The notes under the pieces: generated by a model
What the model was told of the DNA's origin: nothing
What the model saw: the letters and a program-made list of their open reading frames with translations, nothing else
Database searches by the model: none
Assembly: GCA_028869385.1 (NCBI GenBank)
Contig: JAGWSR010000049.1
Coordinates: forward strand, 1-54,547
From: a bacterium
Lineage (GTDB): Bacteria > Vulcanimicrobiota > Vulcanimicrobiia > Vulcanimicrobiales > Vulcanimicrobiaceae
Length of the DNA stretch: 54,547 nt
Reading direction: 5' to 3'
Shown here: positions 6,146 to 41,870 of the stretch, piece by piece
Layout: every line of letters begins with the position of its first letter
Position numbering within the stretch: position 1 is the first letter of the stretch
Program-made: the position numbers and the translations under genes

Positions 6146-7365
6146 TCGCCGACATCGTCACCGTCTTTACCGCCGAGTTTCTGCGCCGCGTCAAATCGCG
6201 CGCCTTCATGATCGGCATCGTGATCGGCACCCTCGGCATCATCTTCATCACCAAGATGCCGGCGCTGCTCGATAAGGCCTTCAACGGTCCCAACGAAATC
6301 GTACTCGTCGGCGACCGCGCGCTGCTCGATCGCGCCGCGCCGCTGCTCGCCAAATCGTATACGATCGAGGCCGAGCTTCCGCCGCAAGCGATCGACGAAG
6401 CCACGCTTCGCGCGCACCATGCGTCGTCGGCATTCGTGTTCACGCAACATGCCCGGAGCTTCTCGCTCGAGGTGTACGCGCACGACCCGGGAGCCGTAGA
6501 GGTACCGCGCATCAATCGTATGTTGATGCCCCTCGCGCTGCAAGACGCGCTCCACGCCGATGCGGCGCGCGTGAAGCAGCTCACGACCGTGCCGATCGCG
6601 ATCAAATCGCTGAGTTCGAAGTTCGCGAACTCGGCCGATGCGAACGCGGCGCGCGGCATCGCCTACACGTTGCTCTTCTTCCTGTATATGTTAATTCTGA
6701 TCAACAGCCAGCTCGTGATGGGTAGCGTCGCGGAAGAGAAGACGAGCCGAATCGCGGAGCTCTTGATCGCATCGGTCGATCCGAGCGCGCTCCTCGCCGG
6801 GAAGATCCTCGCCGGGACCGTGCTCGCCGTCCTTCAAATGGTCATCTGGATCGGCGTAGGTACGGCCTTCGGCTCGCCCGCCGGAGGCGCCGCGGCGAAC
6901 GCGTCCTCCGATAACATCTTCTCGCTCGCCGGTATCTTGAACGTCATCACGCCCGGCGTGGTGATCGCGTTCCTCGCGTTCTTCGTGATCGGCCTGCTGC
7001 AGGTCTCGACGATCTTCGCCGCCTTCGCGTCGCTTATCAATCGCACCGAAGATCTCGGCAGCGTCACGGGTCCGCTCCTCATTCCGGTCGTCGGCGCGTT
7101 CTTCATCGCGATCGCCGCGCTCGGCTCACCGGATGCGCCGTTCGCGGTCGTCGCGTCGTTCGTTCCGCTCATCGCGCCCTTCGTGATGTTCTCGCGAATC
7201 GCGGTGAGCAACGTACCGCTCTGGCAGTTCGCGGGCTCGCTCGCGATCAATCTCGCGGCACTCTACGCGATCGCCATCGGCGCGGGCAAGATCTACCGCG
7301 TCGGTATGCTGCTCTACGGCCGCGCTCCGAAGCTCTCGCAGGTTTGGGCGGTTTTGCGCTCTTGA
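6142..7365 (+). CDS. ABC-2 type permease (NatB-like)
   Basis: 407 residues. There is an N-terminal transmembrane helix (about 22-40), a large extracytoplasmic loop (about 45-170), then five or so helices beginning near 173 (TLLFFLYMLILINSQLVMG). The VAEEKTSRIAELLIASV motif after the second helix is the family hallmark of NatB/ABC2_membrane_3 permeases. With the upstream ATPase it makes a complete exporter; the closest described role is Na+ extrusion (NatAB), but substrate is not readable. It ends just before a long fold-back element that includes a terminator-like hairpin. Confidence 0.9.
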   Translation: MIADIVTVFTAEFLRRVKSRAFMIGIVIGTLGIIFITKMPALLDKAFNGPNEIVLVGDRALLDRAAPLLAKSYTIEAELPPQAIDEATLRAHHASSAFVFTQHARSFSLEVYAHDPGAVEVPRINRMLMPLALQDALHADAARVKQLTTVPIAIKSLSSKFANSADANAARGIAYTLLFFLYMLILINSQLVMGSVAEEKTSRIAELLIASVDPSALLAGKILAGTVLAVLQMVIWIGVGTAFGSPAGGAAANASSDNIFSLAGILNVITPGVVIAFLAFFVIGLLQVSTIFAAFASLINRTEDLGSVTGPLLIPVVGAFFIAIAALGSPDAPFAVVASFVPLIAPFVMFSRIAVSNVPLWQFAGSLAINLAALYAIAIGAGKIYRVGMLLYGRAPKLSQVWAVLRS

Positions 7366-7376
7366 TCGCATTGCAC

Positions 7377-7541
7377 GGCCTGGTGCGCCGCGGAGCCCCG
7401 TCCCGGAAGACGCAAGAAAGCCGCATCGTGCGGCTTTCTTGCTTCGCCGTATTTTGCGCGGAACGAAGTTTTGAAGTTCACCTCCTGTGAAGGCGCAAAA
7501 TGCGGAGACTTCCGGGCCGGAGCTCCGCGGCGCACCAGGCC
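7377..7541. repeat. 165-bp fold-back (long inverted-repeat) element, type B
   Basis: The outer arms are 7377-7409 and 7509-7541; 31 of 33 positions are complementary. Inside are two further hairpins. The first has arms 7412-7425 and 7429-7442 (14 bp, loop TCG). The second has arms ATTTTGCGC at 7451-7459 and GCGCAAAAT at 7493-7501, with an inner TTCAC/GTGAA stem (7477-7481 and 7487-7491). The layout is a long stem leading to a junction with two side hairpins. The elements at 40939-41083 and 41725-41870 have the same layout but unrelated sequence. It sits between the ABC permease and the Tad locus, and its inner hairpin could act as a two-way terminator. Confidence 0.85.
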
Positions 7542-7575: not shown

Positions 7576-8679
7576 CTACGGCGTGACGGTGATGGGGGTG
7601 ATGGTTTGGTCTTGCCGTTCGCCGGTGGAGGTGGCGATGACGACGTCGTAGGTGGTGGGGGCGGCGGTTGTCGGGGCTTGGAGCGTGATGCGGGCGGTGT
7701 TTGGCGGTACGTCGCGTTGGGCGACGATCGTGCCTTGTGCATCGGTGAGTGAGACGAGTGCTTCGCCGTGCGTCGCGATGAAGCGGATCGTGATGAGATT
7801 GCCTGCGGCGACGGTCGTCGGGGCGACGGTTGCCGATGCGTGCGGTGGCTGCTCGTCATGCGGCGCGAGATTCGCGGCATCCGGGATGACGGCGACGATG
7901 CTTGCGCGTTGCTCGAATGCACCGCGCGCGTTCGTACCGACGACGACGCGGAGGTCGCGTCCGGCCGCAGATTGGGGAATGCGCAGCGTCGTCGTGCCGC
8001 GGACGTTCGTTCGCTCGTGCGCCCACACGCGACCGGCACCATCGAGCAGCCAGACGTCGCCGCGCGACGAGGGTGCGTAGCCGACGCGCAGCGTGCTGCC
8101 GGCAATCACGCGAGCGGCGCCGACGCGGATGCTCGGCTCCTCCGGGGCTCGCGCGAGCGCCGTGGACGCGCGGACGCTAGGGTGCGGCGGCGTCGCGACG
8201 ACGTGCGCGGTCGCCTCGCGTCGCGCGTGCTCGCCGAACGCGCCGAGAACGGCCGCACCGGCGAGCGCGAGCGCGGCGGCGAGCGGAGCCGCGAACGCGA
8301 GCGTGCGGAGCAGCAGCGGACGCACGCGCATCGTGACGGGCGGCGCGTCGAGCGTGAAGCCGAGGTCCTGTCCCCGCACCTCGACGATCGCGCGATCGTC
8401 CGGTCGCGCGAGCGCGGCGCGCGGTACGAGGGATTCGACGATCGAGAAGGGCGCGACGTCGAGTTCGCTCGCCGCGGCGCGCGCGCGGCCGAAGCGAACG
8501 GTTGCGCGAAGAGCGTGTTGCGAGTTGTTGGCGATACGCACCGCGTAGGCGGGCGCACCGCTGCGCGGATCGCGTCCCGCGAGCACGGCCTGCGCGCAGA
8601 CGTTTCCGCATCCGTACGGCACGTCGGCCCGCGAGCCATAGGCGATCGTTCCGGCAGCCGCGCGCGCGAGGTTCGTCAC
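7576..8679 (-). CDS. membrane-anchored beta-domain protein at the end of the minor-pilin operon (paralogue of 4193-5206)
   Basis: 367 residues. An N-terminal beta region (about 20-110) with a CGNVC cysteine pair is followed by a transmembrane helix (about 127-148, LAFAAPLAAALALAGAAVLG). Two Ig-like repeats follow (about 175-265 and 275-367), with the pattern LLDGAGRVWAHERTNVRG near 215-232. The order of parts and the repeated motif match the protein at 4193-5206. The GTG start overlaps the TGA of the TadE-like gene upstream (GTGA), so it belongs to the pilus operon. An assembly, anchoring or surface role for the pilus is inferred from position only. Confidence 0.7.
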   Translation of the reverse strand: MTNLARAAAGTIAYGSRADVPYGCGNVCAQAVLAGRDPRSGAPAYAVRIANNSQHALRATVRFGRARAAASELDVAPFSIVESLVPRAALARPDDRAIVEVRGQDLGFTLDAPPVTMRVRPLLLRTLAFAAPLAAALALAGAAVLGAFGEHARREATAHVVATPPHPSVRASTALARAPEEPSIRVGAARVIAGSTLRVGYAPSSRGDVWLLDGAGRVWAHERTNVRGTTTLRIPQSAAGRDLRVVVGTNARGAFEQRASIVAVIPDAANLAPHDEQPPHASATVAPTTVAAGNLITIRFIATHGEALVSLTDAQGTIVAQRDVPPNTARITLQAPTTAAPTTYDVVIATSTGERQDQTITPITVTP

Positions 8680-40830: not shown

Positions 40831-40940
40831 GTGTCACCCTGACCCGGTGTCACCCTGACCCGGTGTCACCCTGAGCCTGCCCCGTGTCACCCTGAGCTTG
40901 TCGAAGGGTCACACCGTGTCACCCTGAGCGTGTCGAAGGG
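40831..40940. repeat. cluster of five GTGTCACCCTGA repeats
   Basis: Five copies of GTGTCACCCTGA follow each other with spacers of 2 to about 30 bases. The last two continue into GCTTGTCGAAGGGTC and GCGTGTCGAAGGG. The final copy abuts, or overlaps by about two bases, the left arm of the fold-back element at 40939. Related units form the 54-bp array at 1-125 and, inverted, the pair at 41872-41924. The sequence resembles short intergenic repeats seen in many environmental bacteria (from memory); function unknown. Confidence 0.88.
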
Positions 40941-41083
40941 TTTGCGGTGCCTACGGGCTCCATCGGGGGACGCCCGCGTTTTCACGTCGTGTGAAAACGC
41001 TACTCGCTGAAATTCGCCTCTCGCCATCCTGGCTTCGGCGAATTCTCAGACGCCCCCGACGGAGCCCGTAGGCACCGCAAACC
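40939..41083. repeat. 145-bp fold-back element, type A, copy 1
   Basis: Outer arms 40939-40971 and 41051-41083 are complementary apart from one mismatch (A versus the expected G at 40962) and one bulged A (40970). Inside, GCGTTTTCAC and GTGAAAACGC (40976-40985 and 40991-41000) make one hairpin. AATTCGCC and GGCGAATT (41011-41018 and 41037-41044), with an inner GCCA/TGGC stem, make a second. The fold is a long stem opening to two arms. It lies 23 bases from the end of the toxin gene. Copy 2 (41725-41870) is inverted relative to it. Confidence 0.92.
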
Positions 41084-41106
41084 AGCAACGTCGTGTGGCG
41101 AGCTCG

Positions 41107-41454
41107 TTAGCGTTCGACGAGCCGTGCGACTTGGTCTCGGAGCGTCTCCAGTTGCGCGTCCGTCACGCGTGCACGGGTGTTGCGAACGCGAGCGATTGGT
41201 ACGGTCTGCGCGTTCCACGCGAGCGCGTACGAGCGCTGCGAACAGCAATTCTCCGGAGACGGCGCGATCTCGAGCGTCGCACCATGGAGTGCGAGCGACG
41301 CGACCGTCGTCATGGGAACGACCAGCAAGTAGCCGAACGCGTCGTGAAAGAGGTCCGCGCCACCGACGACGACCGCCGGGCGCGTCTTGTTCGGCTCACC
41401 GGAGCCGTGCAGCGCGTCACGCCAATCCACGACGACGATGCTGCCGGGCGTCAT
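41107..41454 (-). CDS. MazF/PemK-type mRNA interferase toxin
   Basis: 115 residues from ATG 41454. The start MTPGSIVVVDW, the GEPNKTRPAVVVG motif and VVPMTTVASLALHGATLEI are the core of the MazF/PemK fold, including the Arg of KTRP and the Thr pair proposed for RNA cleavage. A longer start (41466) is less likely because 41454 overlaps the antitoxin stop (ATGA), the usual coupling. The toxin frame is intact. It lies between two inverted fold-back elements, and its upstream antitoxin gene has an early stop codon. Confidence 0.88.
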   Translation of the reverse strand: MTPGSIVVVDWRDALHGSGEPNKTRPAVVVGGADLFHDAFGYLLVVPMTTVASLALHGATLEIAPSPENCCSQRSYALAWNAQTVPIARVRNTRARVTDAQLETLRDQVARLVER

Positions 41455-41684
41455 CCGTGAAACCACTCCGACGGCTCATCCGGCCAGCCATCCGGATGCT
41501 CGCGAACGTGCTCGGCGATCCGGCGTGCGTCGGCCTGTACGCGCGCCGTCTCGCTCTGCCAGTAGGCGGCGATGGCACGACGCACGATCTCCGTATCGGA
41601 TGTGCCGGCCGCGCGCGCCAGCTGCTTGATCTGGCGCTCTTGCTCCGTGTCGAATTAGATCATCTTCCTAAAAGCCTTCGCCAT
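41451..41684 (-). pseudogene. ribbon-helix-helix antitoxin gene with an in-frame stop at codon 10
   Basis: Read from ATG 41684, the frame gives MAKAFRKMI, a TAA (41655-41657), then FDTEQERQIKQLARAAGTSD and a RHH-like helix pair, ending in EPSEWFHG at a TGA that overlaps the toxin ATG. The stop falls in the beta strand that such antitoxins use to bind DNA; one change from CAA would create it. No in-frame start occurs between it and the GTG about 22 codons further on, which would skip that strand. Either the antitoxin is broken, restarted, read through, or this is a sequencing error. Confidence 0.75.
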
Positions 41685-41689
41685 AACAG

Positions 41690-41704
41690 CATAGTAGCAC
41701 TATG
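41690..41704. promoter_or_regulatory. inverted repeat upstream of the toxin-antitoxin genes
   Basis: CATAGT-AGC-ACTATG is a perfect six-base inverted repeat with a three-base spacer, five bases before the antitoxin start. Its place and symmetry suit autoregulation by a ribbon-helix-helix antitoxin. This is inference from position. Confidence 0.5.
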
Positions 41705-41724
41705 ACATCACAACCCCGCATCAA

Positions 41725-41870
41725 GGCTTGCGAGGCCCTGGGCTTCGGTCGGGGGCGTCTCTAGAATTCGCCGAAGCCAGGATGGCGAGAGGCGAATTTC
41801 AGCGAGTAGCGTTTTCACACGATGTGAAAACGCGGGCGTCCCCCGAGCGAAGCCCAGGGCCTCGCAAGCC
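41725..41870. repeat. 146-bp fold-back element, type A, copy 2 (inverted)
   Basis: Outer arms 41725-41757 and 41837-41870 pair with the same mismatch and bulge positions as copy 1. In reverse complement its core is almost identical to copy 1: the GCGTTTTCAC hairpin, the TACTCGCTG spacer and the AATTCGCC hairpin are all present, with three or four changes. The distal arms differ from copy 1 at about ten of 23 positions, yet each stays complementary to its own partner. It lies 41 bases upstream of the antitoxin start and next to a repeat pair. Confidence 0.92.

Follow-up and report, generated by a model that had tools for sequence, protein, structure and literature searches.

The window analysed here, a stretch of 54,547 nucleotides, contains between two genes a long palindromic element whose inverted arms enclose two hairpins, which raises the question of what kind of element this is and how it arose. 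Upstream lies an ABC-2 permease gene (stop 7363-7365; Pfam ABC2_membrane_3) and downstream a converging minus-strand ORF (7576-8679, stop at 7576), to which a Pfam search assigned no family, while an Rfam search of the window returned no match to any curated family. A sequence-only reading had grouped this element with two others, at 40.9 and 41.7 kb, as members of one family recognised by shape, not by sequence.

Structure and sequence kinship of the elements

The described layout of the 7.4 kb element, with a 33-bp outer stem (31 paired), an extra A, two hairpins and an inner stem, is confirmed at 7377-7541 (Table 1). The unpaired A directly follows the left arm, and the arms reach a score of 27 (+1/-2 scoring; 31 pairs, 2 mismatches). 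The minimum free energy is -78.2 kcal/mol, compared with -39.0 +/- 3.5 for shuffles (z = -11.2; 0/200 shuffles fold as well), and the fold is far beyond chance. The 40.9 and 41.7 kb elements fold in the same way, as had been proposed, and all three exceed what shuffled DNA yields: among 30 dinucleotide-shuffled versions of the window, 1.64 Mb in all, the highest-scoring arms separated by 60-140 nt reach 17, against 27, 28 and 28 for the real elements. The outcome named beforehand as refuting the sequence-only reading, no excess over shuffled DNA, did not arise.

Table 1. Features of the palindromic elements in the window
Feature	Coordinates	Strand	Basis
Type B palindromic element	7377..7541	.	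inverted-repeat search, fold, genome search, shuffles
Left arm, 33 bp, 31/33 paired with right arm	7377..7409	+	inverted-repeat search
ACGC junction, common to types A and B	7410..7413	+	sequence
Hairpin 1, 13 bp, loop ATCGT	7412..7442	+	fold and sibling comparison
Hairpin 2, branched inside; start and end approximate	~7444..7508	+	fold
Inner tip of hairpin 2, TTCAC-CTCCT-GTGAA, in conserved type B block	7477..7491	+	fold and siblings
Right arm	7509..7541	+	inverted-repeat search
Type A element, 31-bp arms, 83-nt core, hairpin 1 first	40939..41083	+	fold, core model
Type A element, core 95% identical to 40.9 kb core, orientation opposite	41725..41870	-	fold, core model

The accompanying view that the three elements have no sequence likeness in any part holds for the arms and stems of the 7.4 kb element, which are indeed unlike those of the other two, but not for the junction and tips. 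The 7.4 and 41.7 kb elements (the latter on the reverse strand) both carry ACGC directly behind the left arm and C-ATCGT-G as the loop of hairpin 1, and the inner tip CTCCT of the former resembles ATCCT, the tip seen in type A. Nor is the family defined by shape alone. The 7.4 kb element, here called type B, is one of three copies found in a search of this genome (3.08 Mb, 152 contigs), namely itself, a sibling with a core 80% identical and different arms (G000:C76:12251), and a degenerate third copy; type B is present in 10/61 genomes of the bacterial family, where the arms are again unique and reach 47 bp. The 40.9 and 41.7 kb elements represent a second core type, type A, which is recovered by its core model.

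A structure scan (arm score >= 18, 60-140 nt between arms) covered 836 kb from this genome and its sister species (about 14% of G000 and 396 kb of G001), and every palindrome passing it was type A, type B or an unrelated short repeat, GTGTCACCCTGAGC..GTCGAAGGG. That unrelated sequences arrived independently at the same fold is therefore given almost no credence: the arms and stems of the two types are not alignable, as this idea would have it, but the scan contained no member related by shape alone, and both types recur as sequence families sharing ACGC and C-ATCST-G-like tips. The sequence-only reading was nonetheless right that ordinary repeat finding would miss such elements when applied to them whole, since each copy has arms almost entirely its own; most letters differ among the three. 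Tools for repeats and transposons that are keyed to conserved ends would likewise miss such families.

Core types, distribution and genomic placement

Type A cores are 71-95% alike and 83-85 nt long in most copies, with arms mostly of 25-39 bp that differ between copies; the arms of the 41.7 and 40.9 kb elements are only weakly alike. The covariance model, whose E-values are rough, finds 14 type A copies in this genome, 15 and 5 in two others of the genus, and at least one copy in 75/149 genomes of the phylum. In both types ACGC follows the left arm and the hairpin tips are close to C-ATCST-G; a near form of CATCSTG occurs on one strand in 69/80 cores. Type A additionally has GTAG before hairpin 1 and CGTC at both core ends.

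Named records assign the family to Candidatus Eremiobacterota, a little-known bacterial phylum, and a search for palindromic repeats of Eremiobacterota in the literature covered returned no earlier description; the repeat family is best read as undescribed. Related cores also occur in a few planctomycete-labelled and other MAGs, with short arms and a less certain assignment; six loci in Planctomycetota/Kuenenia-labelled MAGs (L039, L069, L072, L081, L084 and L098) have similar cores with arms of 10-21 bp, and this resemblance hints at a wider family. Viral contigs and plasmids searched for cores contained no copies. The sole match in a phage search was a 32-nt stretch of type B hairpin 1, at unannotated sites in three Pseudomonas phage records.

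Several variants were also observed. G061-G065 (L228-L241) contain a third type of core, both tips of which are GCCATCCTGGC-like; in two closely related species the arms of this type can be aligned, and the outer flanks TTATGCGACGGTCC / CGCACCAAACCA are common to both. At L085 and L091 the core plus one arm is duplicated in tandem (139 and 161 bp steps). One type A copy (L118; G000:C70:1-294) has arms of at least 105 bp running to the contig end, which may reflect either a long palindrome or a fold-back in the assembly. Between the oppositely oriented type A elements of the window (41084-41724) lies a PemK/MazF-like toxin gene (minus strand, 41107-41466; Pfam PF02452), and G001 has a similar module without the elements.

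With neighbour orientation taken from simple ORF finding, convergent neighbours surround 6/8 type B copies (p = 0.0013) and 15/29 type A copies (p = 0.00016), against a 20% baseline, and many arms start no more than about 20 nt from a stop codon. Such placement may reflect either the removal of copies from promoters and genes or a role in termination. In type B, hairpin 1 is symmetrical in the manner of a bidirectional terminator, with an A-tract, a GC stem and a T-tract, also in the siblings, which makes a terminator function plausible from the sequence; a terminator scan called none at 7.4 kb. Another copy lies in a putative atpG-atpD gap, the gene names being read from the sequence.

The one intragenic site verified by homology is in the DNA polymerase III alpha gene, where a type A copy lies in frame in three species and in both core orientations; most of the family members that were read have a short loop alone at this position. 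The same gene also holds in-frame GTGTCACCCTGAGC(C/T)TGTCGAAGGG repeat arrays (ANASDAC..., CHPEHSER...; L112 (G000:C127), L106 and L154). In G000/G001 these arrays occupy a second site that is permissive, in L154 they lie in the loop of the element itself, and G002 lacks them.

Evolution of arms and cores, and its likely cause

Many copies occupy orthologous sites in different species, and at other orthologous sites relatives have no palindrome at all, which indicates insertion: the 40.9/41.7 kb site is empty in G001 and G002, the L119/L135 site in G000 and G002, and the L113 site in G002. For the 7.4 kb copy there is no empty site, since genus relatives are alignable to the permease end alone and lose synteny beyond it. 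No target-site duplication was seen when element borders were checked by eye, the empty sites being too diverged for comparison. Two long, almost loopless palindromes (G000:C58:40946 and G001:C33:259298), orthologous to full elements in other species, keep GGGGCGTCCCC or a close form and are core-less relics. A search for a mobiliser or active copy of the family, in which the transposase search covered PF01797 alone, found neither.

In 19 orthologous pairs, which partly share genomes and so are not fully independent, and which come from MAGs of varying quality, mean identity is 0.94 in the core, 0.90 in the flanks, 0.83 in the arms between species and 0.92 between the two arms within an element (p = 1e-5 for core against arms, 5e-4 for arms within an element against arms between species, 0.016 for flank against arms and 0.004 for flank against core). 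Conservation of the core exceeds that of the flanks, whereas the arms change faster than the flanks, and both arms change together. In 20 orthologous comparisons, one of them redundant, arm substitution columns are 84 matched and 81 unmatched, and gap columns 26 matched and 2 unmatched (the L058/L087 alignment being poor); a 4-bp arm indel in L215/L216 (= L062/L078) is an example of a matched change. The core is inverted relative to the flanks in three orthologous pairs (L106/L111, L221/L226 and L058/L087), which belong to the pairs whose arms have diverged most. Between unrelated copies the arms have a mean z of 0.23, with no common ancestry in deep comparisons, so that inherited arms are supported for recent copies only; the arms of the 40.9 kb element and G000:C3:18580 reach z = 5.6.

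Template switching between inverted repeats is reported to homogenise the arms and to invert the spacer (PMC8604942), and is also known to create and maintain stems (PMC8794818). The first two of these effects are seen here, in arms homogenised with matched multi-base changes and in spacers inverted with flanks unchanged. We infer from this pattern that template switching operates in these elements, and consider it probable that they are a dispersed, MITE/RPE-like family of non-coding palindromic repeats of Eremiobacterota whose arms are rewritten by replication template switching. Each copy has a conserved 83-99 nt two-hairpin core, type A or B, within 25-50 bp inverted arms. During replication the nascent strand would switch template across the palindrome, copying one arm as the other and sometimes inverting the core, and the arms would thereby stay complementary within a copy while drifting apart between copies. 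Copies may persist mainly where they do little harm, beside stop codons, above all where two genes converge, or in a protein loop that tolerates them, and type B hairpin 1 may also serve as a bidirectional transcription terminator. Counting against this reading, about half of the arm substitution columns are unmatched, and no switch event was directly observed, the species compared (78-97% flank identity) being too distant for single events. The lack of common ancestry among the arms of unrelated copies and the negative searches for a target-site duplication, a transposase or an active copy also count against it, as does the reliance of the neighbour calls on simple ORF finding.

Compensatory evolution offers another route to co-varying stems, if the elements were conserved structured RNAs or terminators under selection on RNA pairing. 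Covariation is indeed strong in every helix, the loops are conserved, copies sit at gene ends, often convergent, and type B hairpin 1 both resembles a bidirectional terminator and has its counterpart in the phage records. However, G·U intermediates are almost absent: type A pairing changes comprise 111 double-sided and 4 one-sided (G·U) cases, and among 1842 arm pairs the mismatches are 45 G.T and 37 A.C, G.T thus being hardly commoner than A.C and giving no sign of G.U tolerance at the RNA level. Selection on RNA also accords poorly with cores inverted relative to flanking genes, with matched multi-base indels, with a copy that lies within a reading frame in either orientation, and with the negative Rfam search and a terminator scan that called nothing at 7.4 kb. 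We regard it as unlikely; the matched arm indels, core flips and scarce G·U changes fit template switching better.

Two further proposals concern how an element might be formed. In snap-back insertion, the core would join a target end and its GGGG/CCCC ends would pair and prime copying of the flank, so that the arms of each copy are an inverted copy of its own target. Arms that differ among copies with near-identical cores, the conserved inner GGGG/CCCC and arms beginning a few nt from a stop codon accord with this; recent copies with alignable arms and common outer flanks (the G061/G062 set; 40.9 kb against G000:C3:18580) do not, and empty sites at 75-90% identity lack a clear single-copy arm, a weak objection given intergenic divergence. 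We therefore think this course improbable. The related idea of de novo inverted target duplication, suggested by the unique arms, is weakened because recent copies have alignable arms. Alternatively, an HUH single-strand element (IS200/IS605 or REP/RAYT) could insert the core at CGTC in the tip of a pre-existing palindrome, as GTAG before hairpin 1, CGTC at both type A core ends and orthologous sites holding core-less palindromes that end in GGGGCGTCCCC or a near variant would allow, GTAG/CGTC-tagged palindromes being already a known class (PMC3733652). Yet a PF01797 (Y1_Tnp, RAYT) profile search of this genome gave no match while its control search worked, the GGGCGTC direct repeat permits plain deletion, and G002 has no palindrome at one core-less site. 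The REP/RAYT form is rejected in the absence of Y1_Tnp from this genome, and HUH insertion as a whole seems very unlikely.

Template switching, if it is the cause, would have many natural replicates here, in half of the sampled phylum genomes, although it is usually studied in palindromes site by site. Near-perfect covariation in a repeat family need not denote a functional RNA, and the G·U test and core flips can tell the two apart. A bolder possibility, which we hold to be improbable, is that heritable identity resides in the two-hairpin core, with arms that replication keeps rewriting, each from the other as well as from the locus, and with spread or renewal proceeding without a conventional transposase.

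Comparison with known systems

Rickettsia palindromic elements (RPE) are, like the present elements, about 150 bp long, palindromic and dispersed, also in frame within protein genes, and RPE families encode a conserved peptide (PMC10969869). Unlike RPE, the elements here have nearly copy-specific arms, cores that flip and a single intragenic site verified by homology.

Bacterial MITEs (ERIC, BOX, Nezha and QMITE) share with them a short, non-coding, dispersed form with terminal inverted repeats and with filled and empty sites. In MITEs the terminal repeats are normally preserved from copy to copy and correspond to a transposase, whereas here no part is less conserved than these repeats, which can be aligned in recent copies only, and neither a transposase (PF01797 searched) nor a target duplication was found.

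GTAG- or CGTC-tagged REPs and REP dimers likewise have paired hairpins with GTAG or CGTC beside the stem. REPs measure 20-40 bp (PMC3733652), in contrast to the 145-165 bp of these elements, which hold two hairpins in an outer stem, have 25-50 bp arms and occur in a genome without RAYT.

Quasi-palindrome template switching in E. coli and yeast has the same products, arm homogenisation and spacer inversion (PMC8604942). While the yeast cases are isolated short repeats with arms from 7 bp and a spacer of up to 70, the elements described here form a whole repeat family with 25-50 bp arms and an 83-99 nt spacer.
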